The translations under genes and the position numbers were made by a program. This document shows, piece by piece, positions 1,089 to 63,190 of a stretch of DNA of 64,000 nt. The DNA is taken from contig CANNZV010000331.1 of assembly GCA_947561585.1 (NCBI GenBank), positions 124,001 to 188,000 on the forward strand, written 5' to 3'. Position 1 is the stretch's first letter. The number at the start of each line of letters is the position of its first letter. The notes beneath the pieces were generated by a model. The model did no database searches. It saw only the letters and a list, made by a program, of their open reading frames with translations, and was not told the DNA's origin. This stretch comes from Caprella mutica. Taxonomy: Eukaryota > Arthropoda > Malacostraca > Amphipoda > Caprellidae.

Positions 1089-1262
1089 GACAAAACACCT
1101 AACGGACAAAACGCCTACAGACGAAATGCCTAACGGACAAAATGCCTAAGTTACCAAATATATGAAAATAGAAAATAAAATAGTAAAATATTGATACAAA
1201 AGAATGTTTTCATCCGTTAGGCATTTTTTTCTGTAGGCGTTTTGTGTGTAGGCGTTTTGTCC
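1089..1262. repeat. Small fold-back element with phrase repeats
   Basis: The left arm (1089-1149) holds four degenerate units of the type GACAAAAYGCCTAACG. The right arm (1211-1262) holds the same phrase in inverted orientation (CGTTAGGCATTTT, GTAGGCGTTTTGTCC). About 60 A+T-rich bases separate the arms. The architecture matches the larger fold-back elements at 31519-32688 and 45375-46466, but the phrase differs. No coding potential is visible inside. Confidence 0.75.
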
Positions 1263-1680
1263 TCTCTCGCTACCTGTTGGTGAGTTTTTCAATTAACATT
1301 ACTTCTTTATGTTATTACTGATAATGAATCAGTTTCATAAAGAAGTGATTGTAATTGTAATTAGAGTATAAAAATATTTAGATTTCTCATATTTACCAGA
1401 TGTGATTCAATAATTAGTTTCTTTTATAATAAAATAATTGACTTCAATTGAAGCAGTTCTAATAAACAATAACGAAAAACTATGAAACACATTATTAAAA
1501 ATATTCACCAATTAGCAAATTAATTAACGAAATACTAACAATCATTATCAATCAATCGTAACTTAAATAAATAAACTTTTTTCAATAATCAAAAACATAT
1601 TTTTCCATTGCAGATTGTTAATTATTGATGTAGAAAAAATGCAAATTCATCGATGTTTGATAAAGTTTTTTTTTACGCAG
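1263..1680. other. A+T-rich stretch, nothing recognised
   Basis: No gene or organised repeat is visible. Confidence 0.5.
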
Positions 1681-2324
1681 TAGTAAGCCATCAACCAGTT
1701 GTAAGTCGTTATCCAGTTGTATGGCTTTACTCCCTTGTAAGCCTTCATCCAGTTGTATGTCTTTATTCAGATGTAGGCCTTTATCCAGTTATAGGCCTTT
1801 ATCCAGTTGTAGGCCATTATCCAGTATAAGGCTTGTAAACAGTTGTAAGTCTCAATCCATTTGTAAGACTTGAACCATTTGTAAGTCATGATCTAATTGT
1901 AAGCCTTTATCCAGTTGTAAGTCTTTATCCAGTTGTAAGCCTTTATCCAGTTGATAAATATGTAAGCCTTTATCCAGATATAAGCCTTTATCCAGTTGTA
2001 AGCCTTTATCCAGTTGATAAATATGTAAGCCTTTATCCAGATGTAAGCCTTTATCCAGTTGTATGCCTTTATTCAGTTGTAAGCCTTTATCCAGTTATGA
2101 GCCTTTATACAGTTGTAAGCCTTTATCCAGTTGTATATCTTTATCCAGTTGTAAGCCTTTATCCAGTTGTAAGCCTTCTTTATCCAGTTGTAAGCCTTTA
2201 TCCAGTTATAAGCCTTTATCTAGTTATAAGCCTTTATCCAGTTATAAGCCTTTATCCAGTTATAAGCCTTTATCCAGTTATAAGCCTTTATCTAGTTATG
2301 AGCCTTTATCCAGTTATAAGCCAT
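1681..2324. repeat. Minisatellite, 18-bp unit, about 35 copies
   Basis: Direct tandem array of TAAGCCTTTATCCAGTTG and variants. Copies before about 1900 are diverged (for example TAAGTCTCAATCCATTTG), and those near 2170-2320 are nearly identical and carry a TTATAAG variant. Because 18 is a multiple of three, two plus-strand frames stay open and translate as repeated LSSYKP or YPVISL motifs; these are consequences of the repeat and not evidence of a gene. Confidence 0.97.
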
Positions 2325-3080
2325 AATATTTTAATGTTTCATTCACCGCTTGTACAGAATAATTTTTTTATCAAATATTAGACACGATCGACAATAATAA
2401 TTATTTGATCATTATATATACAATTTATGCATATATCGAAAGAATGGTAAAAAATATTCAACAAATATAACCAATTCAAACACAATAATTAAAACAATTA
2501 AAAACTACTAGTATCTGAGATGACATATTCATCATTTACATCTTGCATATACATAATATATATTTATCATATTTTACAAATTTAGTCATCAATCAACATA
2601 TATATCATATGTACTGATCATATACATCATATGAACTAATAATTTATATCAAATGCATTCAACATATACAATACATCATAATATGTACTCATCACATACA
2701 CCGTAACTACCTAATTCAGTCGTTTTTCGCCAGTCGCTCCATCAAACAGAGTTCCAAATCTTTTGCCGCATTTTCTGGGTCGTTTAGCATAAATAATGAA
2801 GCGGTTAAGGGTTTGCCTCAAGTTAACATCAATGTAAGCCTCGCCATGCCAAAGTAGGGAAAAGTAAGGATGTTGCTTAACCCAATAGTTAACATACATA
2901 TAAAATACATATAAAACCAATAGTTAACATACATATAAAAACATACATAATAGTTAAAATCAGGTTTATTTAAAGTCAAGTATATAAAGAATAAATTGTT
3001 AAGAAATATGAACATGGACATCGATTACATGTAAATGTGTATAAAATACTAATATCTAGAATGAGCACTCTTAGAGCACA
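2325..3080. other. A+T-rich spacer with one short open frame
   Basis: Mostly low-complexity A+T. A short duplication (CCAATAGTTAACATACATAT, twice) lies at about 2881-2945. A minus-strand frame ending at 2711 reads HGEAYIDVNLRQTLNRF and then KRPRKCGKRFGTLFDG. It is richer in G+C than its flanks but has no matching splice pattern that I trust and no family that I recognise. Confidence 0.35.
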
Positions 3081-3222
3081 TTCACTCACCGCCGCTTCAG
3101 ACGATTTTGACCCTTTAGTGGCCTTGACCTGAGCTCCCAAAATCTAATCAAATGGTTTAAGTATAATGACCAATCGTATCACACAACTTCAGGCAATTTC
3201 GTCGAATACTTTTGAATTATGC
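3081..3222. repeat. Dispersed GGTCA-type repeat, single copy
   Basis: This segment matches one monomer of the tandem block at 43250-43725: a CCTTGACCT core, then GCTCCCAAAAT, a CCAATCGT block and a TCAGGCAATTT...GAATACTTTTGA block in the same order and spacing. The preceding CACTCACCGCCGC also resembles the flank of that block. It shows that the family is dispersed as well as tandem. Confidence 0.6.
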
Positions 3223-3774
3223 GATAAACAAAATCATGCATATGAATAAGTACCTAAATATTGACGATCAAAATATAACCTTCCGCCAATTTTTGAACGG
3301 AATTATAGAAGGAATAATAAAGCGTTATATAAAAATGTAAAATTATTTCATATAGATTATGCATTTTAATTGAATATATTAACTAAATAAATAAAAGTCC
3401 ATTTAAAATAAGAACCTTGCTTCATTTTACATGTCTTCAATTAATCAGTAATAATAAATATATTTTAACCAAAACTGAGACATCCTCCTCTAGATTTAAT
3501 TACGATATAATTTCCCCGTCAATTAGGACTCTACGGGGAATCAATTAGAAGTAAATGTATCAAGACACTCAACTTCAATCACTATCAGCATAATTTAAAA
3601 TAATATTATACAATAGATACGATTTGTGTTGCATTGAGAGAATTTAGATAAATATTAAGAAATTATTTGAGTTGTCTATTCTTCTTTCAAAATTCTTTTA
3701 AAAATTAATGCATGATTTATATTTCTGACGTCGAAAGGTATAATATATAATCTAAAGTTATATACATTAATTAC
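3223..3774. other. A+T-rich stretch, nothing recognised
   Basis: No gene or organised repeat is visible. Confidence 0.5.
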
Positions 3775-3889
3775 CACTAATGGTGGCAAAGGGTCTGGCA
3801 GACCCATAGCTGTTTTTTCCATATTTCCGACTCTCAGCAGCTCTGATTCGGAAAAAAACTTAAAATTTGATGATTTATTTTGCCTTGCA
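3775..3889 (-). CDS. Candidate internal exon, unknown protein
   Basis: On the minus strand a pyrimidine-rich acceptor (CCATTTTGTTTTAG, ending at 3890) precedes a 115-nt segment that is open throughout in one frame and ends at a GTAATT donor (3774). It starts with one base completing a split codon and ends on a codon boundary. The 38 residues include SNFKFFSESELLRVGN and GLPDPLPPLV. G+C is near 40% against about 30% around it. A frame over the same bases can be extended to an ATG at 3990, adding a hydrophobic N-terminal stretch, so an unspliced reading is possible. GLPDP occurs in C2 domains, but the rest does not fit, so no family is assigned. Confidence 0.3.
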
Positions 3890-5950: not shown

Positions 5951-5954
5951 AATA

Positions 5955-6125
5955 ACTGGATATAGGTCAATTATTATTGGATCCCGGTCAATTAATTCCC
6001 ATATAAATAGGTTACCAGCTAAATAACTCCCAGGCAGTCAATTCCCTTACTATTCAATTCCTTGTTCCATATTTGGTTCCTGATTAATTGGGCCCCTCAC
6101 AAATTATTTCAAGGCCAATTGGTTT
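5955..6125. repeat. Weak phrase array (GGTCAATTAATTCCC type)
   Basis: Degenerate repetitions of a phrase like GGTCAATTAATTCCC, with TCAATTCC or AATTGG variants, occur at irregular spacing. It resembles the clearer phrase arrays of the window but is too diverged to define ends. Confidence 0.4.
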
Positions 6126-25142: not shown

Positions 25143-25677
25143 TTGTGGCGGGGAAATCGATGAAACTGAGAAGTTTAAAATTTGACGTAATGTAACGGTT
25201 AATGTCTGTGTTCATCATGTTAAAACGAAATGAATCTATAAATCTCGGTTCTAGAGTTATTGGAGAGTTTGCGGCACAGACCAATTTAATACCAAGATGT
25301 CCCAATTAAGTGTTTTGAAAAATCTAGCGACTGTTGGCACGTTTAGCCTATGGGTCTGTGACGTATGGAATATTCTTACGACTTTTGTCAGACAAGTATC
25401 TTTCTGAACCATATCCACAAATTAGGTTTTCAAGATTCAAATGGCATCCTGGCTTCAAAACTTCTATAAGTATGTGAGATTTACAGAGTACCTATATGAC
25501 AGTTCATTTCTTAGCTCCTTAAATAATTTTAATAATAATATGACAGTTTAAATCATAGGTGTGGTGTTAATTTATAGATTCAATTATACTGTTTGTAATT
25601 CTTGAATTAGAAATTACGCTAATTCAAGCTTTCGGTAACCAGGATTTTTTTTACCGGTAGGCCAAGGGGATCAGTGT
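25143..25677. other. A+T-rich stretch, nothing recognised
   Basis: No gene or organised repeat is visible. A minus frame at 25045-25305 has no family or splice support. Confidence 0.45.
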
Positions 25678-25861
25678 AAATTCATCGCGGGTAAATTCAT
25701 CGCAGTAAATTCATCGCGGTAAATTCATCGCGTGGTAAATTCATCGCATGGTAAATTCATCGCGTGATAAATTCATCGCGTAGTAAATTCATCGCATGGT
25801 AAATTCATCGCATGGTAATTTCATCGCAGGTAAATTCATCGCATATAGTAAATCATCGATG
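25678..25861. repeat. Phrase array, GTAAATTCATCGCG, 12 units
   Basis: Twelve head-to-tail units of about 14-17 bp share AAATTCATCGC followed by a variable 3-6 base linker (GGGT, AGT, GTGGT, ATGGT, GTGAT and so on). The constant core and variable linker distinguish it from an ordinary minisatellite. No inverted partner exists elsewhere in the window. Confidence 0.95.
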
Positions 25862-25966
25862 ACATATAACAGGAAGGTAGATAATACAAATAATAGAGAG
25901 GTATATAAATAATAGATAATTTAAGAAAAAAAGACATTGTAACGTTATAAATAATATGGTACACAG

Positions 25967-26104
25967 ACAATTGGGCACAGGGAAATTGGGCCTGCCGACA
26001 ATTGGGCCTAAAACAATTGGGCCTAAAACAATTGGGCACCAGGACAATTGTGCCCAAGATAAATGGGCCTCAAAACAATTGAGCTCGAAAAAAATTGGGC
26101 AGAG
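25967..26104. repeat. Phrase array, ACAATTGGGCCTAAA, 9 units
   Basis: Nine units of 15-16 bp share ACAATTGGGC with variable tails (ACAGG, CTGCC, CTAAA, ACCAG). One unit carries TGTGCCC in place of TGGGCCT. It starts about 105 bp after the previous array ends, in the same style but with an unrelated phrase. No inverted partner was found. Two minus-strand frames here (25836-26057, 25853-26047) only translate the repeat. Confidence 0.95.
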
Positions 26105-27805
26105 GACACAATGAAGAAGTTTTACTTTGTTATTACATAGGATAGTGACAATATTATATTTGAAATATGTTTATTTTCTTTAAAAATATATTTATAATTT
26201 TTTAATTCGATTGATATATACTTGATAAGGTGTATATTATGAAGCCCGTTAAATCTCATTTGGATTGTTAATCTCATGTTTGATGCAATGAAAATCTTTG
26301 AAGTATTTAAATAAGTCGTATTAAATTGAATCATGTCATGTGGATCCAATTTGTAGTGTAAATCGTCTGAAAAAATGGTCATAGTAATATTTAGTTAATA
26401 AAATTGTTAAATTTGAAAGATTTTCATTACATTGAACTATGATAAATTGAACAGTTGTAGGGATAAACTGAGATTATGGGAATACATTTTGTAATAATAA
26501 TTTATAAAACTCTTTTCAATTGAACACAGACTGCAGTGAACAGATTTCAACAAATTCACATTAACTTTCAAGTTGACTTTTATGTTCCAAAAATTTCAGC
26601 ATGTCTTGGTGGGCCACGGCTATCTTTAAATACCCACAATCTTATTTTCTATTGTCTCTTCATCTAAAACAGCCACATTCTTATTTTCTATTGGCTACAT
26701 CCTAACTCACTCACTATACAGGAGTTCACTATAGTAGTACTGTAACTAGGAAATTTGTTACTTACATGAATTATCTAATAATAACATTTAACTCCTTCTA
26801 AAGTAGATATTATCTTATTTGGCGACTTCGTAGTGAAGAATTTACTGTTGAAAACATCATTAATTCATTATGTTTCATGTCAGATGCAGCATGTGCATCC
26901 TCTATGTAAATTTTATTAGTGATTTAACTGTTAATTACAGTTTTTTCATTTTATTTCATAATTTCACCCCTCAAAATATTGGCAATGGCGACTTTGTGCT
27001 GATTTGAAAAATTTCATCCATGATTCAGAGTAATGAGAGTATTTCCATTAAATAATTGGCTTACATTTCAAAATTTCAAATCTCAGATAGCTATGTCTAG
27101 GACTCTAAGTATTGACTTGATTTTTTTTAGTAATTCTTATTTTCCCCATGTTAAACAGTTAATTTTAGTTTTGAATCTTCAAAATGAGCCAAAATTGGCT
27201 TGGCTCAAATATTGGGTTACACCGTTACAGTTCTCCATCCATCATCTGTAAACACTCTGCTAATCAATAAACTGTAAAGCTAGAATTCGATTTAAAATTT
27301 TAATTCCTATCATGATATGATCCTAAGTTCCCATGTCAAATCTTCAAAAAATACTCAAAATTGGCTATGAGCAGAATTATTGTGAAAGCTTAGTTCAAAA
27401 TTGGTGAGCCTATGGAACATGGGAAGTCACCACTGCAGTGAGAAAATGAATTGGCATCCATGCTTGATAAACCAAAGTCACTATGTTTGATATAATAAAA
27501 GTAATATTTGGTTCCCTAATGATCTGTATTTGCCTGTATATTTATGAACTTGTACAATTTTAATTGTCCAGAATGCAGCCAATAGCTTTCTTGAGTCATG
27601 CTTTATTTATTATTTTTACAAAATATTAAAATTTAAAATGACATAAATTACTTTCCATTAATTAATAGAAGTTAATTTGCAATATGAAACTAACAATTGT
27701 TTATCATATTGGAATGTTTAAATGAATACCTCTTAATTTGATGTTGTTTTATACCTGGGTAAATTGCTAGTCTAAATTAATTTTCAATATTTTATTATTT
27801 TTCAG
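26105..27805. other. A+T-rich stretch with a small duplication
   Basis: At about 26634-26700 CACAATCTTATTTTCTATTG and CACATTCTTATTTTCTATTG occur 40-50 bp apart. No supported gene is visible. A plus frame at 27033-27251 lacks support. Confidence 0.45.
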
Positions 27806-31475: not shown

Positions 31476-33063
31476 CCATAATGAGTTTGAGTGTCAGAAT
31501 GAACGGGAAGGTTTGACTGGGTCTAGGCTGATTTTCCGAGAAAGAATTGGCCGAAACCAAATTTTCCGAAAACTAATTCTCCGAAACCGATTTTCCGAAA
31601 ACGTGTTTGCCGAATCCCAAATTTGCCGAAAACCAATTTTCCGAAATACGGATCTGCGAAGGACAAATTTTCCGATTGACGAATTTGTTGAAAATCAAAT
31701 TTAATGTATTTAAAAGAACATTCTGTGGAACTTTGTAGTTCTCATCATTATATCTTATGCAAAAAAAACATATCTTATATGAATTTGACATTGATATTGC
31801 TATGCAAATTTGTGTTCCGCTAATTGGCATTACAAATAAAAGGTTGATAGGAATCAATGTTTTTTTAACTGAAACAAATTTATTCGTGTAACTGACACTA
31901 TAATTGAAGCCAAAGGTATATTGGGAAGATATAAACATAACTAATAATTATGTTATTCACTACTAACAATTTTATATTCTAAACGCAATAAATGGATTAA
32001 ATATTAATATGTCAGCCATAAAAAACCTTTTGTATGGGATACTATTAATAACTGAATCCAAAATAAGAATCCCGTGCGTGCTTTATATGGCGTATTTACA
32101 CAAAGAATTTTGGGTTAAGTAATCACACAAAGTTGTTTACATGTAGTTTATTATTTATTATTATATATCATTATTGCATTAAAACAATGAACTATAAATG
32201 GATTATTCACAAAAAAATGAATAAACACGTTATAGTAACACACAATCTATAAACAAGTCAAACGCTCAAATGAATGAAATATAACATTCACCCAAAACTG
32301 ACTGACTGATACTGACTGAATAAAGCTTGAACGGCTTTAAAATGAGAAAAAAGACGGAGGATCATTTAGTTGTACAAAGATAACAGTTTGAGATAGAATA
32401 ATTAAAGAATCGATTTTTAGTGTAACTAAGGGTTATGATTTCGTTTCTTTCCTGTAACTTTTGTATATTTTTACATTTGGTTTTAAATAAGTCTTTGGTA
32501 AATTTGACTTTCAGCGAATTTGTCTTTCGGCAAATCTTCATTTCGGCGAATCCGTTTTGGACAAATTTTGGTTTCAGCAAATTCGTATTCGGAGAATCCG
32601 GTTCGGCGAATTAGGGTTCGACGAATTATTTTTCGGATAATTTGGTTTCGGCAAATTCGTTTTCGGAAAATTCGCCGGATACCGGTTTTACTATGTGTTA
32701 GAAAGAACACATTTCTTATTTATAAACATACGGTACTGACATTGGCAACTAAGAGAGCAGAACTGTGTTTGGGTGGAGTGTACCCTAATCACAGCTCGCG
32801 AATTTGTCTTTACTCCATGAAAACTAGAACAGATTAGTGATTATATGCTAACCAAACTGTATTTCTACGTTGCCACACGTCACGACAGTAAAATTAATTT
32901 CCTAATTTACGTGACTTACGCAGATACATGAATATTTTTTAAACTTTTAAGTACAAAAATATATTTGGTATTTATGTAAAAACAAATTTAAAGGAATGAC
33001 ATGAAAGATATAAAGCAATTTAAAAAGGATGTGCCAAGAAAACACACGTCGAACTCAATTGGG
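31476..33063 (-). mobile_element. piggyBac-like MITE copy A, split by an insertion
   Basis: The ends are flanked by TTAA (31472-31475 and 33064-33067). The left end CCATAATGAGTTTGAGTGTC and the right end ACACGTCGAACTCAATTGGG match the ends of copy C at 34808-35330. Between 31519 and about 32688 a phrase-repeat element interrupts it; without that insert the copy would be about 420 bp. To its left, 31425-31472 resembles internal sequence of the same family in the opposite orientation, so an older partial copy adjoins. It encodes nothing. Confidence 0.8.
31519..32688. mobile_element. Fold-back phrase element inserted in MITE copy A
   Basis: The left end (31530-31686) holds about ten units like TTTTCCGAAAACCAA and TTTGCCGAATCC; the right end (32501-32684) holds about twelve inverted units like TTCGGCGAATTCG and TTTTCGGAAAATTCG. 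About 800 bp of A+T-rich DNA without a convincing gene lies between them. Comparison with the uninterrupted copy C places the insertion inside the MITE sequence GGTTTGA/TATGTGTTA, and ACT appears at both junctions as a possible 3-bp target duplication. Frames over the arms (31408-31704, 31573-31938, 32483-32710, 32520-32837) only translate the phrases. Confidence 0.85.
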
Positions 33064-35334: not shown

Positions 35335-36270
35335 AGCTTTAAATATTCATATCATTCAGCTGTCTTCATAAATAAGTCTGTTGAAGAAAGCATATCCATG
35401 TTATTTATAATCATAATGGATGACATGAGAAGTGATTTTCGAGTGTCGTTGAGAGGCATTACATTATTATTCTATGAACATCAATTCATTATTCACTCGT
35501 CTTTTGAAAGGCACTCACTTCGATTGCGAGTAAGAATTCCTAGTCTGGAATCTGAAAAAATGATGATTTATTAAATTCCCCTTTGAATGGTCCTGACATC
35601 TCCTTTCGAATTTCATTGATGCCGAAAAATCAAGAGAAAAATAAGCATCAGATAATAATCAATGAACGAGTACAACCTTTCGGCTAGTACAACGGGATTG
35701 ATATAAACTTTATAAGTTCATCCTTACAAATTCCCAACTTAAATCTAATGAATAAATTTACGATTTTTCACATAAAACTTTTTAACAACTTCCTGAACGT
35801 GATAATGGTGGGCAATATTGCAAGCAGAATATCGACAAGTAACTATTATCTAAAATATACAGATGTTAATAAAGTGCTTAGTAGTAATCTTTTAAGTTGA
35901 CAAAGTACAGTGTTGATTTGCTATTGTTTAGTTATTCGTGTCATTATTATACAATATATAGATTTGAATGCAGAATTGATAGATAATCTAAAGGAAAAAG
36001 TAAATATAAGTAAAAAAAAAAGGAAAATGTTGGACATTTCAAATCATTGTATAGATTGTCCTATGGTTCATTATTGAAATATGAAGAGAAATTTCCTGAA
36101 ACAGTCTGAAAAAGATATTAACAATTTGAGAAGCTTGTGCCATAAAAGAAAATGTAAGGTATTCTGAGCCTCATCTTCCTAATTAAAGATATCACATATG
36201 GAAAAAATTAGATTACTATATTCTTAAAGAGATTAGAACATCTGCAGTGCACTTTGATTGAACTATAATA
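35335..36270. other. A+T-rich stretch, nothing recognised
   Basis: No gene or organised repeat is visible. Confidence 0.5.
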
Positions 36271-36275
36271 GAAAA

Positions 36276-36968
36276 CAGTTACTGTGATGATGTACTATCA
36301 GAGAGAAAAGTCACTGTGATGATGTACTATCAGAGAAAAGTGTCACTGTGATGATGTACTATCAGAGAAAAGAGTCACTGTAATGATGTACTATCAGAGA
36401 AAAGAGTCACTGTGATGATGTACTATCAGAGAAAACAGTCACTGTGATGATGTACTATCAGAGAAAACAGTCACTGTGATGATGTACAATCAGAGAAAAG
36501 GGTCAGTGTGATAATGTTCTATAAGAGAAAAGAGTCACTGTGATGATGTACTATCAGAGAAAAGAGTCACTGTGATGATGTACTATCAGAGAAAACAGTC
36601 ACTGTGATGATGTACTATCAGAGAAAAGAGTCAGTGTGATAATGTTCTATAAGAAAAAAGAGTCACTGTGATGATGTACTATCAGAGAAAAGAGTCACTG
36701 TGATGGTGTACTATCAGAGAAAAGAGTCACTCTGATGATGTACTATTAGAGAAAAGAGTCAATGTGATGATGTACTATAAGAGATAAGAGTCACTGTGAT
36801 GATGTACTATCAGATAAAAGAGTGAATGTGATGATATACTATCAGATAAAAGGGTGACTGTGATGATGTACTTTTTGAGAAAAGAGTCACTGTAGATGAT
36901 GTACTGTTAGAGAAAAAGAGTCACTGCAGATGATGTACTATCTGAGAAATGAGTCACTGTGATGATGT
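36276..36968. repeat. Minisatellite, 32-bp unit, about 21 copies
   Basis: Direct array of AGTCACTGTGATGATGTACT followed by ATCAGAGAAAAG. The phase is constant (starts at 36311, 36343, 36375 and on). A variant pair with TGATAATGTTCTATAAGA appears twice about 130 bp apart, so part of the array was duplicated as a multi-unit block. Units after about 36750 are diverged and some gained bases. Confidence 0.97.
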
Positions 36969-41223: not shown

Positions 41224-41718
41224 GCGCTCGGTGATAGGGAAAAGTCCAGTGATTTATGTAATGATCAGTAATTAGTAAGTGTTTGGTGATTGGGAAATTT
41301 CTAGTGATTTATGTAATGATCAGTAATTAGTAAGTGTTTGGTGATTGGGAAATTTCCAGTGATTTATGTAATGATCAGTAATTAGTAAGTGTTTGGTGAT
41401 TGGGAAATTTCCAGTGATTTATGTAATGATCAGTAATTAGTAAGTGTTTGGTGATTGGGAAATTTCCAGTGATTTATGTAATGATCAGTAATTAGTAAGT
41501 GTTTGGTGATTGGGAAATTTCCAGTGATTTATGTAATGATCAGTAATTAGTAAGTGTTTGGTGATTGGGAAATTTCCAGTGATTTATGTAATGATCAGTA
41601 ATTAGTAAGTATTTGGTGATTGGGAAATTTCCAGTGATTTATGTAATGATCAGTAATTAGTAAGTGTTTGGTGATTGGGAAATTTCCAGTGATTTATGTA
41701 ATGATCAGTAATTAGTAA
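41224..41718. repeat. Minisatellite, 55-bp unit, 9 copies
   Basis: Units start at 41224, 41279, 41334, 41389, 41444, 41499, 41554, 41609 and 41664, each GTGTTTGGTGATTGGGAAAT, then TTCCAGTGATTTATGTAATG and ATCAGTAATTAGTAA. Copies two to nine differ by only one or two bases, which indicates recent expansion. The first copy is diverged, and beyond 41718 decayed pieces (GTGTTTGGTGCTTGGG, GTGTTCGGTGATTG) continue to about 41840. Confidence 0.98.
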
Positions 41719-41855
41719 GTGTTTGGTGCTTGGGAATGTCTGATTATGGTAATGAATGATAATTAAATAGTTTTCGATCTATGATCGAGGAAAGTTCAGT
41801 GATTTCGGCAATTGGGTAGTGTTCGGTGATTGTATAGTGGTACGTATACATACGT

Positions 41856-44652: not shown

Positions 44653-45374
44653 GTAATTGATACTCACAAATATTTTATGTAGTACTAAAACCATGTTAAA
44701 TTTAACAATTACAATTATTGATAGAAAATCAATCAAGGAGCTTAATTGTAACCTGATAATTCAAAAAAAATGTAACCTAATAATTCATTCCTAACTCGAG
44801 CTATTGAAGACTTAGTCTTACAATCTGAAATGTATTAACGAAAATGAACAACAGTGAAGTCGCATTTCAAAATCTCTCTTTTGCAGATTAAGAAAAATAT
44901 CACTCTAATCTAAATTTCTTCAATTCTAAGACTAATTCTTTTTCGGATTTTTTTTCTAAGAATGATTTATAGCTGCATGTAACTCATCTCTCCAAAGATT
45001 GTTTCATAATGTTCAATATCAGGACTGTCTAATCACACTGATCCTCAGCTTCAAATAGACAGAGTCCCAATAATCCTCTCAAATTGTTATCCATTGAGTC
45101 CTTAGAATTCGAATAATTGTATTAAAGACGAATTCGATCAAACGTACTAAGGCTATATTATTCGATTAATAACTATATTTCCTTTTGGTATTTTATTTTT
45201 CTTTTATGTGTTTTGAAAAGATGTTAATTATTATTATGACTTTCACAATTACTTTAAAACTTGCACTCATTTTAGTTATACTCAAATGGTACTTCAGTTA
45301 TTGCATATATTATTTATTACAATACGTGAAATTTAGTTATTTCAGTCGTTAAATATATGAAATCATAGTTTTCC
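44653..45374. other. A+T-rich stretch, nothing recognised
   Basis: No gene or organised repeat is visible. Confidence 0.5.
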
Positions 45375-46466
45375 TAGAACGGTTCTAGGACAACTCGACA
45401 CTGGAAAATTTGCCACCGGACAACTCGCCGCGGAAAATTCGCCTTGTGGACTACTTCCTGCTAGGACAGGTTGCCACCAGGACAACTTGCTGCGTGATTT
45501 ATGTTTTACCGGCGTATTCATCATTTACATACATTTAAAATTATTATAAAATTTCAACAAGGATTTATTTTCATATGCTCAAGACTGACGTGAAAGAGTG
45601 ATTGACAAATTTCATTATATCAATATATATTATATCAATTTATTATTTTCTTTTTTGTCTTATTTCAAGCTGCAAATATATTAGAGCTATTAATTTAAAT
45701 TTAGTAGTGTTTAACGTCTATTTCGAAACGAAGGGCCTTGTCGTTGACGGCAAAAGTAAATTAAATACAAGGGACTGGAAGATGTCAGGAAACAAAGAGG
45801 ATCCTTGAATAAAGGCGCCAACCACCAGTCCTTGATAATGCTCATATATGGAGAAAAGCTACTTCGTGGATTTAATCACTTACCAAGGAATGAAATGAAA
45901 AGGGACACAAGCACCGGTGGCTGCACTTACAAATATGTATATGATGAAAATGAAGAGGTGATAGTAAATGTCACCTATTAGCCTACCTAACACAAACATC
46001 GAAGACCTCGTAGTTAAAGAATATTTTATTTGCACTGATGTACTAGCTTTAAACGGAAGTTTTTTTACAGGTCATTATAAGTATTTAGAAGACACCTGAG
46101 CTTGTTTTCTTTCCAATAGCAAATTACTTTTAGCAAAATGCTTTCAAACTTAAACGAAGAAAGTTTTATTGTTAATTTACAACATACACTATATTTATAA
46201 TAGTTTAGATTATATTTTTATTAAAAAAACATTTCTTTAATTTTTGAAATTGAAAAGAAAACATTTTCAAATAGGGCTAAGAAAATTGGATAATTATTTG
46301 ACAACACACAGTTTATATTTATAATATTTTTTATACATAAATGTTGTATACGGCGGTAAAACATAAATAACACGACGAGTTGTTCTGGCGGCAAATTGTC
46401 CTAGCAGCAAGTTGTCCTCGCGGCGAATTGTCCAGCGGCGAGTTGTCCGGCGGCAAGTTGTCCGGT
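45375..46466. mobile_element. Fold-back phrase element, GACAACTTGCCGCC type
   Basis: The left end (45375-45497) has about eight units such as GGACAACTCGCCGC and GGAAAATTCGCC. The right end (46370-46466) has the inverted phrases GGCGGCAAATTGTCC and GCGGCGAATTGTCC. Just inside each array the match continues as GTGATTTATGTTTTACCGGC and its inverted form near 46348-46375, so each arm is about 125-145 bp. The 0.85-kb interior carries a coding-like relic (45705-45981). The architecture is the same as at 31519-32688, with a different phrase. Confidence 0.87.
45705..45981 (+). pseudogene. Coding-like relic, copy 2 of 3
   Basis: Its first part matches 19970-20085 and 53470-53545. One frame reads FNVYFETKGLVVDGKSKLNT and stops at 45808; another takes over near 45760 with GLEDVRKQRGSLNKGANHQ and continues GEKLLRGFNHLPRNEM to a stop at 45979-45981. 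Agreement of NTRD, E-R and RGS with the 20-kb copy across a frameshift suggests a decayed gene. It sits inside a phrase fold-back element, so it may be the remains of that element's own protein. The family is not recognised. Confidence 0.45.
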
Positions 46467-47139
46467 TAGTGGTTAGAGTACATAATCTCCACCATCAAAG
46501 CATATCGTGTACGGTTTTCATTAGTTTAATCTTTCTATTAAAATTGAATTATCTCGTTCAAACGAAATATTCAACTGAATTAAATAATTGCAGCCTATTG
46601 AAAACACTAAAGATAATTTCTCATCTTATTAAACACAAGAGAACTGCAATTAACTATTCACATCCCAAAATGTCTACAAACAGTTTTTTTCACGAAATTT
46701 AATTAGATGTAAATACTACTAGAGGCTAGATTGGCAATTACCTTTGACAGTCTTGAATGAATTGCACACATTCCAATTTGATTTGGAAACAATTATCGAA
46801 ATGTTTTAAAAACCACATCGTAATTGGCGTACGTTTTAATTGAGATGAGTTTTGAAAACCGATTCAATGCTTTCGCTAATTATTAGAACTAATAATGTTG
46901 ACAGAATCAATACTAATTGCTTAAGTTAAAATTGAAGGAAAATATATAACACGTGATTGTAATACAACTCCATGTACTGGAATAATTTTGGAATGAACTT
47001 GGGTAAGACTTACTAAAGGTTTATTGTCTATTGATATCAGATTGTAAACATACAGTTAATAGTTTATTTAACCATTTTCAAGTATGAAAAGAGAAAACTG
47101 ATTCATTGACTATTACGCCTTCATACCAAGAAGCAATAA
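46467..47139. other. A+T-rich stretch, nothing recognised
   Basis: No gene or organised repeat is visible. Confidence 0.5.
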
Positions 47140-47346
47140 CAATGTTTCGAGGGGTAACTTTGTCCTATATTGTCAACATTGTAACGATATTTGAATAATG
47201 TTTACTCAATATCTGAGCAATAATGTAACGATTTCGAGTCAATGCTGTACCAGTGTTTCAATATATGGTCTTTATATTGTTGAAACATAGTCCCAATATT
47301 GTTACAGCATTTCCCACAACATTGGTATCCTAATAGTGCTGCAATA
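47140..47346. repeat. Phrase array, CAATATTGTTACAACATTG type
   Basis: Degenerate, partly palindromic words (TATTGTCAACATTGTAACG, CAATATTGTTACAGCATT, AACATTGG, CAATGCTG) recur for about 200 bp. The left edge AATGTTTCGAGGGGTAAC matches AATGTTTCTCGAGGCAAC at 61803, so the two loci are related. Confidence 0.5.
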
Positions 47347-51547: not shown

Positions 51548-52012
51548 AAAAGATTGGAGAAAGTAAAGATAACGCACCAGAAATGGACCAAGTAAAGTTA
51601 CCGGACTAGAAATGAAGCTGGTAATGATATCGGACCAGAAATTAAGCTAGTAAAGTTAATGGATCACAAAACTTTTTTTAGTTTTAAAAAATATTTGCTT
51701 CAGTATTTTATAAATATACAACTGTATATATGATAATATTAATAATTATACTTTTTTTTAAATATTTTTAATTGAAAGAATTGATAAATAACGTGATTCA
51801 TTTTGAAATTATGAAGAACGAGTAGTTAAAAGATGAGAAAAATGTGGTATCTATGATTCCAAAATTATAGTCTTATTTAAATTATTGGTCAAATATTTAA
51901 TAATTTAACCAAGTAAAGAAAACGGACCAAAATTGAAGTTAGTAAACATAACGGAGAAGAATTTAACCTAGTAAAGTTAACGGACTGTGGTCCTCTGTCT
52001 TTACTTGCTCCA
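51548..52012. mobile_element. Phrase element, 29-bp AGTAAAGTTAACGGACC unit
   Basis: The left block (51562-51666) has four units of AGTAAAGTTACCGGACTAGA plus AATGAAGCT; the right block (51909-51988) has three more in the same orientation. The extreme ends are inverted: TTGGAGAAAGTAAAGATA near 51555 and GTCTTTACTTGCTCCAAAAG ending at 52014. About 240 A+T-rich bases lie between the blocks. It combines direct internal phrases with inverted outer ends. Confidence 0.8.
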
Positions 52013-52663
52013 AAAGATTATACTCATGAGAAAATAATATATTCCGATACTTTTCTGCATACTTCTGTCTTAAATTTTCAACTATATAATCAGAATTCCC
52101 ATAAAATATTTCAAATTTTCATTATAGTTAAAATTTTTGTTTAATATTTACAGAATTTTTTTGAGTAATTAACAAAATGAAAAAATATTAAAATTATATA
52201 CTAAATATATTACAAAATACATTTCTAAATTCCTTTAATATTACACAATTTTCAACTTAGAAAAACCTAATAAACAGTGAAGTTGAATTTGGTAATATTC
52301 ATTTCTTTGTTTGCCCTTGTGTATAATTTCTAGATCCCTGGTTCATGATTTTCGCCCCCCCCCCCCCAAGATATAAAAATAACTAAAAAAACGTATTATA
52401 ATTAAAAGTCGCAAAACTCTATATTCTTATAGTTAAAAATAGCTATATAATATCGAAAGATAACAATCGATTAATTCTAGTAACCTAGCCGCTGGCGCAC
52501 CAGTCGTCGAAGAAAATAATAATAACATTAATTTTATACCGATTTGGAAGCGGTCTTATCATGACATTTTTTTTCACATAATTAGACAAAAGCTAAAGTG
52601 TTAAATTGTAAAATACTCATATTTTGAGCATTTATTCAAATACATTAGTAGTATATCGGTACA
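52013..52663. other. A+T-rich stretch, nothing recognised
   Basis: A run of about 14 C is at 52356. No gene is visible. Confidence 0.5.
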
Positions 52664-52722
52664 CGGAAAACTGCTAGGCGGAAAACTGCCAGGCGGAAAA
52701 CTGCCAGGCGGAAAACTGCCAG
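52664..52722. repeat. Phrase array, CGGAAAACTGCCAGG, 4 units
   Basis: Four 15-bp units, the last three identical. GGCGG...CTGCC within the unit makes each one weakly palindromic. About 750 bp downstream lies a segment homologous to the interior of the fold-back element at 45375-46466, so this may be one end of a related element whose other array is lost or beyond the LINE-bearing MITE. Confidence 0.93.
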
Positions 52723-53469: not shown

Positions 53470-53545
53470 GGGGTTTAACGTTTGCTTTTGAACCGAAGGT
53501 TATATTGCTGACATTAATAAAGGAAATTAAAAACAAGGGACTTTG
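53470..53545 (+). repeat. Coding-like dispersed segment, copy 3 of 3
   Basis: GGGTTTAACGTTTGCTTTTG, ACCGAAGGTTATATTGCTGA and AAATTAAAAACAAGGGACTT align with 45705-45780 and, at both ends, with 19970-20034. Translation gives GFNVCF, a stop, TEGYIAD and, after a shift, KLKTRDF. It is more decayed than the other copies. Confidence 0.5.
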
Positions 53546-54013
53546 TACGTAACTTAACATGTTTTTTTAAAATTTACATGGCATAGCAAATAAGTATAAA
53601 ATGGTAATTGTTACTTCCTTATGTGTACTGAAGTTTGGTATACTGTGTGTTTAATAAGGTAGCTTTGTTGAAATATAATTTTTATTTGAATATTAAGTAA
53701 TCCAATATCTATATTTTATTACTGTAAAAATGAATATCCCCTTAACCACTTAACGAAGGGCTGACGCCGTTTTTTTAATTAAAATGTTCTTTAAATGTGT
53801 TTATAACTAAATAATAAAAGTGAAAAATACATAAATTAAAATATTTACGTATCGGCGTAAATCACGTAAATTATTATATTAATCGTACTCTGGTGACGTG
53901 TGGCAGCGTAGAAATGTAGTTTGCTCTGCCTAAAAACACACATCTGTCTATGTTTTCATGTAGTACACACACATGCGCGAGTTGTGATTGGGCCACACTC
54001 CACCCTATCACAG

Positions 54014-55637
54014 CTCTGACATCGTCGCCGAACTCAACAGTTATTTCGTCAGTGTCTTCACCAGGGAGGATGCGCTTGGCACCCCTGACCCCGTAGTCTA
54101 CTACGAGGGACGAATGCCACTGACTGAGATTGTTTGTACTGTTGAGGAGGTAGTGGACAAACTTGGCAAGCTGGACCCTAACAAGGCAGCTGGTCCTGAT
54201 GGATTCTTACCGACAGTGATGAAGAACGTGAAGGATGGTTTGGCGGCACATCTGCAACAGATCTTCAATGTCTCTTTGGAGTCGGGCGAGGTCGCCGACG
54301 ACATGAGGATCGCGGATGTGACCCCAATCTTCAAGACAGGTGAGACCACTAGCAGTAGTAACTACAGACCGATTAGTTTAACATCGGTTCCTGGAAAGCT
54401 GCTAGAATCCATCATCAAGGATAGGATTGTGGATCACCTGGAAGAACACCAGCTCATAGGAAAGAGTCAGCATGGCTTTCTTCGCGGGAAGTCATGCCTG
54501 ACAAACTTACTAGAGTTCTTCTACTACGTTCTTCAGGAGCATGACAAATCCAAAGCTGTTGACATCGTCTACCTTGATTTCAAGAAGGCATTTGACAAGG
54601 TACCTCACAAGAGGTTAATGGCGAAAATAGCAGCTATTGGTGTGGGTGGTCGAGTTCTACAATGGATCAGGTCATGGCTAAATAACAGACGACAAAGAGT
54701 GGTGGTCAATGGCGTGGCCTCTGTGTGGAGCTCCGTAACCAGCGGGGTTCCCCAGGGCTCAGTCCTTGGTCCTCTGCTCTTTATTATTTACATAAATGAC
54801 CTTGACGTAGGACTCGTCAGTAGGGTATCCAAGTTTGCTGATGACACAAAGATTGGCATCAACGCTGCAAGTCCAGAGGCCATCGGACAACTCCAACTTG
54901 ATCTTTTCAAGATCGGAGAATGATCGGAAAAGTGGCAGATGCCCTTCAATGTGGACATGTGTAGAGTACTTCATGCTGGTCGTAGGAACGCTGAAGCTTT
55001 CTACACGCTACTTGGAGCCCAAATAGGACCCACTGATGTACAGAAGGATCTTGGAGTTATGATCACCAGGGATCTCAAGTTCTCTCGACAGTGCCTGGAA
55101 GCTGAGAAGAGAGCAAACAAGATCCTAGGGTATATCAAGAGGCAATTCAGATACAGAAACAGAGAGACAGTCCTCACCCTGTACAACTCTCTTGTAAGAC
55201 CTCTTTTGGAGTTTGCGGTCCAGTTCTGGTCACCGACGTTGCGAGCAGATGTCCAGCGGTTGGAACGGGTGCAAGCGAGGGCGACTAAACTTGTACCTGA
55301 AATCCGATCCAAGGGATACGCACGTCGGTTAGAAGACCTGGGCCTCTTAACGCTTGAGCAGCGACGTTTGAGGGGTCAACTCATTGAGACTTTTAAGATC
55401 CTTCGAGGGATAAGTCGAGTTGATCCCGAAGACTACTTTTCGCTGTGTGTGAACCCCACCCGCAACCACGGGTGGAAGGTGGTTCCGCCTCGGTTCACCA
55501 CTGCTCAGCTGGAGAACTTCATGCTGGTAAAGATCTGTAATGTCTGGAACAGACTGCCAGAAAATGTTGTCAGCAGCCTGACTGTTGACACATTCAAAAG
55601 GCGACTTGACAGGATACTCAGTGAGCTGGCTTACTGA
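54014..55637 (+). pseudogene. LINE reverse transcriptase, one nonsense codon
   Basis: One frame spans the region with a single TGA (54921-54923) where a Trp is expected (KIGE-stop-SEKWQM; relatives have WSEKW). Recognisable blocks in order: AAGPDGFLPTVMK (about 54190), NYRPISLTSVPGKLLE, SQHGFLRGKSCLTNL, YLDFKKAFDKVPHKRL with the first catalytic Asp, SGVPQGSVLGPLLFIIYIND, and KFADDTKIG with the catalytic Asp pair at 54834-54845. After the stop come KDLGVMI, the YNSLVRPLLEFAVQFWSP block, RVQARATKLVPEIRSKGYAR and a C-terminus ending SELAY with TGA at 55635. The first readable residues (SDIVAELNSYFVSVF) lie between endonuclease and RT, so the endonuclease is missing. The 310 codons before the stop and 237 after it are free of frameshifts. 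Confidence 0.95.
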
Positions 55638-56117: not shown

Positions 56118-56452
56118 CTGTTGCAAATGTCTTATATACCTATTTATTTATTTCACCTAATACATTCAATATTTTCACTTCAAATTTGGAGCACACTAGT
56201 TTAGTATATATACTAACAACTTGTAAAAAATGCAGTACCATAGGCTTATAAATAACACATGTGTTTTTTTAAACATAGTCAAACCTTCTCGTTCATTCTG
56301 ATAGTCAAGCTCATTAAGCCGATTAGGGCTAAAGGTGAGTTATATAGAAAGGAAAAACTACACACTCATGTTAGAAAATCTCGAATAGAAATTGTAAACC
56401 GGTGGCGAATTATCCAGGTACAAATTTTCCTCATGATATCTATCCAATTAGT

Positions 56453-57112
56453 TCAATTCTATGAATTCTATTCCATGAGTTCTATCATATGAATTTTATT
56501 CCATGAGTAATATCCCATAAGTTCTATCATATGAGTTTTATCCCATGAGTTTTATCCTATAAGTTTTATACCACGAGCTCTATCCCATGTGTTCTATCCC
56601 ATGAGCTCTATCCCATGAGTTCTATCCATGAGTTCAATCCCATGAGTTCTATTCAATGAGTTATCCCATGAGTTCTATCCCATGAGTACTATCCCATGAG
56701 TTCTATCCCATGAGTACTATCCCATGAGTTCTATCCCATGAGCTCTATCCCATGAGTTTTATCCCATGAGTTCTATCTCATGTGTTTTATCCCATGAGCT
56801 CTATCCCATGAGTTCAATCCCATGAATTCTATCCCATGAGTACTATCCCATGAGCTCTATCCCATGAGCTGTATCCCATGAGTTCTATCCCATGAGTTCT
56901 ATCCCATGAACTCTATCCCATGAGTTTTATCCCATGAGTTCAATCCTATGAATTCTATCCCATGAGTACTATCCCATGAGTTCTATCCCATGAGTTCTAT
57001 CACATGAGTACTATCCCATGAGTTCTATCCCATGAGTTCTATCCCATGAGTACTATCCCATGAGTATTATCCCATGAGTTCTATCACATGGGTTCTATCC
57101 CATGAGTTTTAT
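56453..57112. repeat. Minisatellite, 15-bp unit, about 43 copies
   Basis: Array of TTCTATCCCATGAGT with frequent single-base variants (TACTATCCCATGAGT, CTCTATCCCATGAGC). Higher-order blocks combining the TTC, TAC and CTC variants recur. It starts about 120 bp right of MITE copy D. The frame at 57074-57340 enters from the repeat and has no support. Confidence 0.98.
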
Positions 57113-58607: not shown

Positions 58608-58990
58608 CAATATTATCCGTATATGAAGTATGTAAAATACTTGAGATGTTATCAGTATATTAAATTAGTAAAATACTTGAAATATTATCAATACATTAAA
58701 TAAATAAAATATTGGTAAAATTATCCATAGAATAAATAAGTAAAATACTAGTAATATTATCCGTAGATTAAATAAGTCAAATACTGGCAATATTATCCAT
58801 AGATTAAATAAGTAAAGTACTAATAATATTTTTCGTAGATTAGATAAGTAGAGTATTGGTAATATCATCAAAAGGTTAAATAAGTGAAATACTGGATATA
58901 TTATCCGAAGATTGAATAAGTAAAATACTGGTAATGTTATCCCTAGTTTAGGCGAGTAAAATATTGTAATATTATCCGTACATTATATAT
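58608..58990. repeat. Minisatellite, 36-bp unit, about 10 copies
   Basis: Diverged units of AATATTATCCGTAGATTAAA and TAAGTAAAATACTGGT. The minus frame 58665-58871 with repeated LFNLWIILPVF is a by-product of a unit length divisible by three. Confidence 0.93.
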
Positions 58991-61800
58991 GTTAACTCCT
59001 ATCATCCTTCTGTCTCCCTAGGGCGTATACCTCGTACAATAATAAATATGCTTTTTATTCCATATAACATCTACTTTCTGTATCGACATTACCACTAAGA
59101 AAATTTCATTCGAAATTTCATCTTCACTTCTGAGAGGCTTGCATAGAGTTATGATGAACTGTAGAGAGAGGAAGTGTTGCAGCGATTGCAGGACGCTAAG
59201 GAAGACGGTGTAAAACCTTATTTTGTTTCAGTTATATCATTTCTCCATTAAATTTTTTTTCAGTTATATCATTTCTCCATTAAACTGACGCTAGATTGCC
59301 AGTCACGTGACTCAAAAATAAGGATTTTAGCGTCCCGCAAGACGCGATATTATTTTGGCCACTGACTCACCACTTGGAGGCTTGTGAGGATTCATTTGCC
59401 GAAACTTTTAGTCAAAATGTGACGTTTTCTCTGTCAGCTGACTTTAAAGAAAAAAAATATCACACACCAAATGATATCTTACTGAATTACATAATGTATC
59501 GATAGTGAATATTTTTTGATTAAAAGAGTACCTATATCTTGTTAAATGGATGAAGATGTTAATCTGAAAGATGATTTTAATGCAATTTCATTTGAATCAT
59601 TGTAAATTATATTGTACAGTTCCATTTACCATCAACACTTTAATATCGTATTATAATTACAATAGGTTATTATTAATGATAACTCAATATATAAGCAATT
59701 CTCTTATATATGAATTACTATGATGATAATATGCAATTGCAATTCGAATCCAATAATTGGTACTTTATCCTGTACTCTTACTTTTTAATTTACAATTCAA
59801 ACCAGTGATAGTTGCAAAGAAAAAATGTGTTATTAAATAATCCTTATATAATACACTCTTTACTTAATTACTTTAATTAATTGAGCAAATCTTGTCCTTG
59901 AATGATAATAATCACTGCAATTCCACTGTCTAAGATTCTTACTTTCATATTGAGAGAAGTAAGACTTGGCCTTTTAAATTCTACATGTAATATCGCTATT
60001 CTGTTGGCTATGTTTAGATTACTTTAATACAACGCAATACAATAAAAATTTGTAATTATAAATAAGTAATTGAATGAAATAATTTGTTTTATCTCATATG
60101 TGTGATAATGGAATACCTTTTAAATTGGAATTTTTAAATTGATATGATTTAATGTAACGGCTATCCGTTATGGAGGGGGAAACATACAACCAGTGAGATG
60201 CTATCTTGTACTTTCGTTCCTCGTGTTCTACAAACGTAAATCTGTAATAATTCATTCAATCAATAAAAGAAAAAATAATATCAAAAATAGAAAACTAAAA
60301 CAAAGCTGAGTTGAACGTGAACGTTGTTACCAAGTAAGTTCTAAAGTTTAGTTCAAATTATTTAAACACAGCTAAAGAAATATATAGGTAGGTAGTTTAA
60401 TTCTTTTAGAAGTAATATAATATAGTAATGAATGCATTGTTATAAATAATAAATGAATGAAGGAAGTTTTCTTATTAAAGATATATAAATTCCTTTTAAC
60501 AACTACTGGTTACAAAAGTTGAAACAATATGAAACGTAATCAAATATGTGCTACGTAACAAAGAATACCTAATAACAAAAGCATATACTGGCTGCTGTAA
60601 TTTGAAATATTAAGTCCAGTATTATCTAGTTACAATATTATGAATATTTGATACCTAATGCAATTAACGTACCAACTATGGAGCTCCTAATTTCAGTTTT
60701 CAAAGACACCGGCACAACCTCTTGTAGGTAATGTCATGAGTCTACTGAGAAAAATGCTAAGGGAAATGTATAGTGGCTTAGGCTACGTTATAATGAGTTC
60801 GGATGATAATTTGCGAATAACTTAAGTGATAAACAGTATGCACAAATAAAATCTTAGGAACATAAATGCAAATATTAAGTTTGATGTATTTAAATTAAAT
60901 ATTGTGGAAACCTCCACAACAAATGAGATCTGTAAGTTAATTTCATTATTTATTGTATCTAATCATTAATTTAATATTTCAATTAAGTGTCACCAATTAA
61001 CAGCAGCTTATAAAGTGTGTTCAATTAATTGATAATCCTATTGAAACAATGTTCAATTTGTTAGGATTTCAACTTCAATTAGAGTAACATTTCATGTCTG
61101 TGAGTGATAATCGTACGCGTGTAATCAAATATGAAAACATTTTTGAAATATATTCATTTCATGTTAACTGATGATAGTTCAATTTATTAAAAGAATATTA
61201 TCCCTGGCTTCGCTTTCACTCAATACTTTCATCTTAATAAAAAGAAAATTCTTAGCCGTTCGTAAGTGTTCGATTTATCCAATTAAAAAAATAATTTACT
61301 AATGATCGTAATCAGGCACGCTCAGTTTTTTTTAATTATATCCCATTATTAGATATATAATTATAAATAAATTATAATGATGTGAACGGTTCATTAAAAT
61401 ACACATAGCTCCATTACCTTTTTGTCACTTAGATCCTTCTTACTTTAATCACCTGACTGTTACCATTCCTTGCTAATAATAATCCTTAATCCCTCTCATT
61501 CATCCATAAAGAAGATTAAAGAATGTCTAATCAAAGCTTAAGATTCCTATTAATCATAATTAGAAAGATCTTAAAAAGACAATAAATCATGTATATAGAC
61601 AGTAACACTCTTAATTATTATAGAAGAAAAAAGACATTAACGTAGAACTGCGTGATTTAGAAATTACAAAATGGAGAATAGGGTTACATTATAACTCCCA
61701 AGTTTTGAAAAATATGTTATTAGTAATTGAATATTTTCCTAATCGTTAAATATAATCTAACATTTCCACATCATTTTATACGATAAAATACACAGTTAAA
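58991..61800. other. A+T-rich stretch with one small duplication
   Basis: TTCAGTTATATCATTTCTCC with ATTAAA occurs twice in tandem (59227-59252 and 59259-59284). A short segment near 60680-60735 (MELLISVFKDTGTTSC followed by a GTAATG donor) could be a first exon but is too short to call. Nothing else is visible. Confidence 0.45.
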
Positions 61801-61875
61801 GCAATGTTTCTCGAGGCAACATTGTCCAATATTGAAACAGTATTGGCAATGTTATATGTAATAATATTTCGGCAA
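61801..61875. repeat. Phrase fragment related to 47140-47346
   Basis: AATGTTTCTCGAGGCAACAT, TTGTCCAATATTG and TATTGGCAATGTTA share order and wording with the left part of 47140-47346. Confidence 0.45.
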
Positions 61876-63071
61876 TTTTACCTTTTTTACCCGATAATAT
61901 CTATTTCAATGAAATGTTTCATAATATACTTGTAAAAATGACACAGATTTTAATTTTGTGAGCCTATTTTTTTTGCCTCTAAATGCGATATTATAAATAT
62001 AATAGTATAGAATAAAAATGCAAAATTTAAATGAATGTTTATGAAATAAGCCAGTAAACTTGAGAGATAACTTTCACTATCATTATTACATTATCACCAA
62101 TAAGTAGGCTATATTTTAAGAAAAATATACATGTAAATTACATCACCGTCAATAAATAACTTGTTAGGCCTAAATAAACACATGTTTTCAATTTCCAAAG
62201 ATTTTCTAAATAGGCCCTAACTTAAAGGCTTCTCTAAACAAATCATTAATGATAACCCAAGAGATAAGTTCTATGTTTTCTCAGAAATATATTTCAGAGG
62301 TTGAGTCTAATTGGTTTGAAAAGAAGAAGCCAAATTATTGACGAGAAATGAATCTTGCGTTGAACAAATATTTTCTACTTTCGAAATATGTTTGAAACGA
62401 TGCTAAAATGAGAATCTTTTTTAAAATGAGCTGCGTAAGATTTAAAATAATAGAATAAGCTGTCAGTTATTTCAAAGCTTTCAGAAGAAGATTGTACGCT
62501 GATATCATTAACTAAAATGGTTTGATAACATTTTCTATTTACCTGCAGATGTCTTCACAATGGTTTAATTATGACGGAAATATATACAGAACGATTCATA
62601 CTTGGAATTTGCATTGTGATTATTTTATAATAACTACTATTTTATTTCACCATTTATACTAACTGTGTACATTGTAATAATGTTTATAGATACTTCGGTA
62701 ATTAGTTCCTTGTGTACTAACCCATATCATATTTACACTCAATTATTGTAGAGAAGCCAAAATCCTTAAATTCCCTAACAGATCTTCTATATTTACTAAT
62801 AACAAATACTTTGAAGCAATATCTCATACTAGAAACTTTTCTTCGTGAAAACAGTTTTAATGAATTAAAGTTTTTCACCATATTTCAAAAAGATTGAAAT
62901 GATTTGTGTCTCACATGGGAATTATTGCCAATGTTCATCTATCCTCCAAACTCTCTTAAGTTTGCTCGTAATTTGGCTTCAACTGAATGATGGAGAGAAG
63001 AAGTACACTGTGTAATGTGTTCAGCCTCTGCTACAATTGATTGATTGAACAGATCAATTATTTCAATGGTG
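61876..63071. other. A+T-rich stretch, no supported gene
   Basis: On minus, 63050-62939 reads DLFNQSIVAEAEHITQCTSS and ends LREFGG with a stop at 62939. It could be a terminal exon (acceptor-like TCAATCAATTGTAG) but has no family match. Confidence 0.35.
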
Positions 63072-63190
63072 CAACACAAATAGCAGACATACACAAATAG
63101 AGACACCAACACAAATAACAAACCAAATCAAATAGCAGACCAACATAAATAGCAGAACACCAATACATTAGTAGAACACAAATAGTAAAC
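63072..63190. repeat. Phrase array, ACACAAATAGCAGAC, 7 units
   Basis: Seven units of 15-19 bp share ACAAATAGCAGA with variable linkers (CAAC, ATAC, ACCAAC). No inverted partner is visible before the window ends. A minus frame (62939-63121) starts inside it. Confidence 0.75.

Follow-up and report, generated by a model that had tools for sequence, protein, structure and literature searches.

Sea urchin TU elements, reportedly described by Liebermann in 1983, are said to combine an outer domain of 15-bp tandem units with an inner domain, varied middles and an 8-bp duplication, and to use one repeat family. We analyzed a stretch of DNA, here called the window, that is 64,000 nucleotides long and comes from the amphipod Caprella mutica (GenBank assembly GCA_947561585.1, contig CANNZV010000331.1, positions 124,001 to 188,000 of the forward strand). 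It contains eight strong loci of short tandem arrays, labeled A to H from left to right. With a probability of roughly 0.7, we interpret these loci as old, decayed, non-autonomous foldback DNA transposons of the cut-and-paste type, the arrays being putative repeated transposase-binding sites. This interpretation is based on the in-register inverted arms of elements D and E, on an exact 8-bp target duplication around element F, and on anatomical agreement with Tm1, a foldback element of root-knot nematodes (Meloidogyne) that belongs to the Phantom subclass of the Mutator superfamily (PMC3169594). A Tm1 end consists of a target duplication of 8-10 bp, a 7-bp tip (A1/A2), the triplet GGA, tandem units of 13-15 bp in varying number and an inner motif, and Tm1 copies mostly resemble miniature inverted-repeat transposable elements (PMC3169594). 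Taken together, the window loci resemble this order of parts, with a target duplication at F, a tip at six loci, a GGA-like triplet at five, units of about 15 bp and an inner domain in E. Tm1 has one repeat unit, or phrase (CGATTCAGTATCCGC), whereas the window loci have at least eight. The foldback architecture is already known; the many divergent phrases behind one tip within 64 kb are the new part, and none of the open-licence papers listed by our searches reports, in its title or the opening of its abstract, a genome in which several array phrases have a tip in common.

The window is AT-rich, with a GC content of 28-38% in 4-kb bins. All eight loci were detected by Tandem Repeats Finder (TRF), and a lag scan recovered them independently, although for E it listed the right arm and missed the left. 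The lag scan returned 25 tandem-similar loci, a total that also counts ordinary minisatellites, where 20 dinucleotide shuffles averaged 0.4, and the self-similarity of the window is therefore not a product of chance. The unit lists resolve the arrays into a core and a variable linker. When F, whose units are 29 bp, is left out, 65 steps from one unit to the next remain (A-E, G, and H); 59 of them measure 14-17 bp, and the mean of those 59 is 15.46. Mismatches are spread unevenly over the columns of the unit, core versus linker, in five of the six families tested (A, 0.023; B, C, D, and E, ≤0.0005; H, 0.35; G and F were outside the test), in an alignment of units on the core that itself favors such unevenness. 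The core-plus-linker construction that a first-pass annotation of this DNA had proposed for the strong loci is confirmed by TRF and the lag scan at eight loci and by the uneven columns.

Clustered inverted partners are present at three of the eight loci, A (1089), D (31519), and E (45375). Element D (31519-32683; no strand is assigned to A, D, E, or F) is composed of inverted arrays of ACCAAATTTGCCGAA, with 10 units on the left and 12-13 on the right of a 0.8-kb interior. When the left arm of D is set against the reverse complement of the right arm, the units pair in order and have unit-specific letters and linkers in common. Element E (45381-46472, with an uncertain right edge) has inverted arrays of GGACAACTTGCCGCC, with 7 units on the left and 5-6 on the right, followed inward by an inner inverted domain. 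The left arm of that domain (45494-45550, again without an assigned strand) contains ATTTATGTTTTACCG and has its partner at about 46318-46373; the inverted match of E runs beyond the array into the inner domain, with 80% identity over 152 bp. In permutations of blocks of 15-16 bp, the real score for arm register was reached in none of 1000 trials for D and in none of 1000 for E. The arms of D and E match unit by unit and are therefore true terminal inverted repeats and not two independent expansions. The tips of D are GGGTCTA (left) and GGTATCC (right), and the left tip of E is GGTTCTA. Boundaries at GGGTCTAGGC and GGTATCCGGC are possible for D, with GGTTTGACT (31510-31518, plus strand) and GGTTTTACT (32684-32692, plus strand) lying outside them as a target duplication that matches at 8 of 9 positions. 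A rival direct repeat nearby, GTGTCAGAA/GTGTTAGAA, likewise matches at 8 of 9, so the duplication at D is a candidate only. Element A is a short foldback pair at 1062-1269, with outer ends that are a proposal; its units of phrase GACAAAATGCCTAACG occupy about 1071-1149 on the left and, inverted, about 1216-1262 on the right, and its candidate target duplication, TTACCTAT/CTACCTGT, matches at only 6 of 8 positions. The left edge of E (45373-45389) is also a palindrome, CCTAGAAC-G-GTTCTAGG, with perfect 8-bp arms and a 1-bp center. A protein search with the open reading frame (ORF) spanning the right array of E gave no match at an E-value of 0.1.

Element F (51556-52011) is flanked by the exact 8/8 target duplication, AAAAGATT, at 51548-51555 and 52012-52019, both on the plus strand; the chance rate of a random 8/8 pair is about 1e-4. 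GG forms the first bases of the element as placed by this duplication, and the short inverted tips, GGAGAAAGTAAAGA and GGAGCAAGTAAAGA, match at 13 of 14 positions. Target duplications in the P superfamily, to which the Drosophila element Galileo belongs, are 7 bp long, compared with the 8 bp of F. The 29-bp arrays of F, at 51561-51670 and 51902-51985, are in direct orientation. The first-pass annotation had stated that arrays are inverted to each other wherever both ends are visible; this is true of A, D, and E and not of F, and a general rule of inverted arrays was consequently rejected.

The remaining four loci are single arrays on the plus strand. Array B (25667-25865) contains 12 units of GTAAATTCATCGCGTG, array C (25957-26112) nine units of ACAATTGGGCCTAAA, array G (52657-52722) four units of CGGAAAACTGCCAGG, and array H (63067-63190) units of AACACAAATAGCAGACC. 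The tips are TGGTACA at 25957 for C, CGGTACA at 52657 for G, and TGGTGCA at 63067 for H; the tip site of B is ambiguous, being GGGATCA in one Gibbs run and TAGGCCA in a later run. A clustered inverted partner was looked for within the window for all four arrays and none was found.

A Gibbs sampler placed a YGGTNCW tip outside six of the arrays (C-H) at a near-constant distance. The input was 22-bp left flanks, in windows placed manually relative to the first core (in the case of A, a weak outermost unit at 1071), and the single arrays B, C, G, and H were each assumed to have their outer side on the left; the Gibbs tests followed k-mer tests, after the motif had been spotted by eye. That the tips of C, G, and H all lie on the left may thus reflect construction or chance. 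In the first run with the eight left flanks, the picks were TCGTACT (A), GGGATCA (B), TGGTACA (C), TGGGTCT (D), CGGTTCT (E), TGGAGAA (F), CGGTACA (G), and TGGTGCA (H), a result equaled by one of 60 shuffles. Against 400 shuffles of the flanks, the score was reached three times, and the position spread and the joint outcome not at all. With A and B omitted, neither score nor spread was reached (0/60 for each). Control flanks were unremarkable, both the inner flanks of the same arrays (11/60) and the far sides together with the right ends (20/60). A triplet RG[AC], picked by eye, follows the 8-bp tip at A, C, D, E, and G (5/8). The tip is similar to the stretch CGGACAA that occurs in some phrases and may therefore perhaps be a decayed outermost array unit. 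The window yielded no further tip-plus-array loci, none of 193 unlisted tip matches rising above the 99th percentile of background.

The first-pass annotation had described the phrases as entirely different between loci. This view was refuted, since the phrases have a common directional grammar near GGACAAA.TGCC. Consensus units were read from the outside in for the paired loci and on the plus strand for single arrays, and were compared by their best circular match. The summed same-strand similarity of the phrases was reached by none of 600 composition shuffles and by one of 400 dinucleotide shuffles; the real set is the unique best among 128 combinations of reversals, and it is tied best among 128 combinations of strand flips, the tie being the set with B flipped. 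The same result is obtained with the TRF consensuses. Eight other minisatellites of the window, used as a control, give no grammar signal (0.63); five of these eight control units come from ordinary minisatellites at 1678-2322 (18-bp units), 36262-36968 (32 bp), 41230-41736 (55 bp), 56439-57112 (14 bp), and 58609-58989 (36 bp). A, E, and G contribute most to the grammar, with GACAAAATGCC, GGACAACTTGCC, and GGAAAACTGCC. "Distant variants" is a better description of the phrases than "unrelated". Entirely different phrases were rejected on the grammar tests and the TRF consensuses.

Scored with the tip model of the window, the Tm1 tip A1 (CGGTTAA) ranks among the top 0.65% of 7-mers and CGGATAA among the top 1.4%; the model does not accommodate A2. 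Placed at the spacing of Tm1, A2 matches at 5 of 7 positions at the right end of E (0.003), at 4 of 7 at the right end of D (0.024), and at 1 of 7 at the right end of A. One base further out, the first letters of A1 match at 5 of 5 positions at E and 4 of 5 at G. The triplet stands 8 bp in from the start of the tip in the window loci and 7 bp in Tm1. The repeat unit of Tm1 (motif C) is no closer to the window phrases than are its own shuffles (0.75 and 0.38), and for this reason we do not file the window loci as Tm1 itself. The placement of Tm1 in Phantom rests on its transposase, and its authors caution that ends of the foldback type evolve in different superfamilies (PMC3169594), a warning that applies to the window loci because no transposase was seen there. 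On anatomical grounds, the putative transposase of the window loci would most probably belong to the Mutator superfamily (Phantom/Tm1), and the loci are possibly one Mutator-like class with a drifted array motif. The Phantom and Rehavkus groups of Mutator-like elements (MULEs) have long ends in some members, minisatellites, and duplications of 8-10 bp (Phantom) or 9 bp (Rehavkus); the minisatellite there sits after the ORF or before the 3' end and does not itself form the inverted end (PMC6446971). Tetris and Galileo, both of the P superfamily, are like the window loci in having long, internally repetitive inverted ends but differ in the length of their repeats, about 210-220 bp (PMC4079207, PMC3573991). 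The end repeats of Galileo are reported as extra transposase sites (PMC3573991), and the passages on Galileo and Tetris back a reading of such repeats as possible extra sites for the transposase (PMC3573991, PMC4079207).

A full end of the proposed elements would consist, from the outside in, of a target duplication of 8-9 bp, a YGGTNCW-like tip, often a GGA-like triplet, and an array of about 15-bp units, to which E would add its inner inverted domain. The units would be repeated binding sites for a transposase encoded by an autonomous relative elsewhere, and their pitch of about 15.5 bp (about 1.5 helical turns) would mirror the spacing of the protein on DNA. Multiple sites would increase affinity and tolerate decay. 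The tip would be the place of cleavage and slow to change, and the array motif would drift along with the DNA-binding domain of the transposase, giving many phrases per genome. We put forward only tentatively, as something that may well prove wrong, the stronger idea of one transposon clade in which the cleavage tip has stayed fixed and the tandem recognition motif has been replaced repeatedly, creating many mutually unreadable end "dialects" in a genome.

A number of results weigh against the interpretation of the loci as foldback elements. The interiors were compared among loci and none is shared, and a scan of 10 of the 145 stop-to-stop ORFs of the window, one of which encodes a reverse transcriptase, revealed no transposase. 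There is no firm target duplication for A, D, or E, and none that is convincing at A or E; at B, C, G, and H the matches are mostly AT-rich and of the chance type, and none is assignable. The arm register of A, which has few units, is not significant (99/1000 block permutations), and the direct inner arrays of F depart from the foldback arrangement and may indicate another family. A later Gibbs run moves A and B elsewhere at a near-equal score (43.0 versus 43.2), and the position spread of all eight is then unremarkable (15/60). The tip at A and B is ambiguous for that reason, and a firm tip at all eight loci was rejected, leaving six. The tip model accommodates the right end of F (0.07% of 7-mers) and, marginally, that of D (about 7%), but not the right ends of A and E. 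Little or no signal for the tip came from k-mer tests, one of which gave no excess and another 0.0485 and 0.0045, and a composition-matched version gave 0.083 and 0.0965; given these tests, and because the motif was first seen by eye, the tip needs confirmation on other copies. A1 at the 7-bp spacing of Tm1 is unmatched, with 3-4 of 7 positions at five left ends (background 0.11-0.34). A2 also matches at 4 of 7 at the left ends of A, C, and G, and since these three score the same as the right end of D, the resemblance to A2 is not specific. Omitting A and E weakens the grammar (0.04), as does omitting A, E, and G (0.065). The likeness to Foldback-type ends that the first-pass annotation had drawn is supported by the in-register arms of D and E, the duplication at F, and the anatomy of Tm1; inverted ends built of tandem repeats are seen at A, D, and E and not at F, with its direct arrays, or at the partnerless B, C, G, and H.

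Unrelated superfamilies (e.g., Mutator, P, hAT, and Merlin) could each have expanded their ends into foldback arrays, with a common pitch that stems from helix geometry and not from ancestry. We regard such convergence as a serious possibility, somewhat short of an even chance, for foldback ends are known from different superfamilies, F with its 8-bp duplication, symmetric tips and direct 29-bp arrays is unlike D and E, the interiors have nothing in common, the grammar links A, E, and G most strongly and the remaining loci weakly, and the tip is ambiguous at A and B. It would nevertheless need a coincidence to account for a tip at six loci at near-constant distance together with a directional grammar. 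The same tip and grammar speak for the earlier suggestion of one class whose end repeats turn over quickly, which is in turn opposed by the unshared interiors, the single firm duplication, and the lack of a transposase in the ORFs tested.

An origin as ordinary minisatellites, that is, independent short tandem duplications without mobility whose inverted pairs arose by local inverted duplication, is unlikely. The arm register of D and E, the exact duplication at F, a pitch that is mostly 14-17 bp, a common grammar that the control minisatellites lack, and tips at six loci all argue against it, even though plain minisatellites with units of 14 to 55 bp are numerous in the window. The lack of a clustered inverted partner at B, C, G, and H speaks for this explanation, and only the grammar counts against it there, plus the tip for C, G, and H. 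Host protein-binding arrays, such as replication or regulatory iterons, might also resemble transposon ends, and 15-bp GGACAAATTGGCC arrays in viral contigs, some of them near replication genes among the cases examined, indicate that such a look is possible without transposons; the presence of eight dissimilar arrays within 64 kb, of inverted arms that enclose interiors, and of a target duplication makes this explanation very improbable for the window.

If, under the foldback interpretation, the phrases differ while tip, pitch, and grammar are common, the loci would represent a natural series of drifted transposase-binding sites in one genome. If the idea of one clade with a fixed tip holds, they would also be a record of the coevolution of a transposase with its binding site and of the splitting off of new element families through a changed recognition sequence. 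Setting each phrase beside the DNA-binding domain of its matching transposase would reveal how recognition specificity changes, and the same comparison would bear on whether non-autonomous copies escape or follow their helper and on the frequent origin of foldback ends.

The only recognized protein among the window ORFs scanned is an RVT_1 reverse transcriptase at 53988-54920, after which comes an ORF that extends to 55637. Among the 120 listed of its 7949 matches, those with names are mostly from animals, with no close species. A MULE transposase with a FLYWCH domain was likewise not found in those 10 of 145 ORFs.

Pattern scans of viral contigs gave 23 loci with one pattern and no match with the others; a scan of genome contigs gave 14 bacterial records, which were checked for core density only. 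No animal relative is evident among the 23 viral loci, where the match regions were viewed and 10 ORFs were scanned over four loci. The 15-bp GGACAAATTGGCC arrays, at viral loci L001 (10052-10182), L017 (1832-1947), and L008 (9885-9940), are strikingly like phrases C and E. They indicate that the array form, and even the letters of the core, can arise elsewhere, and they are no evidence of kinship. The L017 array lies 3' of a DNA polymerase A gene and 5' of a VapE-like gene, and these viral arrays are possibly replication iterons. At L009 (1416-1476), palindromic GGACAATTTGTCC repeats are located inside an ORF with a sub-threshold DnaD-like match, near a DnaB helicase gene. This repeat stretch has the appearance of an origin embedded in a replication gene of a phage, and the same stretch is present in L021 and L022 (the genes checked are those of L009 only).

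Weaker loci had also been proposed as members. They were queried with words drawn from those loci themselves, and the matches were compared with one shuffle. The word from 5955 had six matches versus five in the shuffle; membership of that locus is not supported, and it was rejected on this count. The word from 8703 had nine matches versus one, in both orientations, and the segment 8698-8960, with GGGACAACATTGGGA-type words both ways and a further inverted pair, GATAGTAACCTA, is a possible ninth, degenerate element. For 47140 and 61801 there were 11 matches versus one, scattered, in mixed orientation and without regular pitch; the segments 47172-47342 and 61827-61862 have scattered CAATATTG/GTAACATTG-type words of mixed orientation in common, which may or may not amount to an array. 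Diverged duplicated segments with 87-94% identity are present at 38961-39063/40960-41048 and 39221-39335/40486-40597, the latter pair being inverted, and a 20-bp tandem repeat, TTCATACACGTTCAAACCAG, is found in both copies of the duplicated segments.

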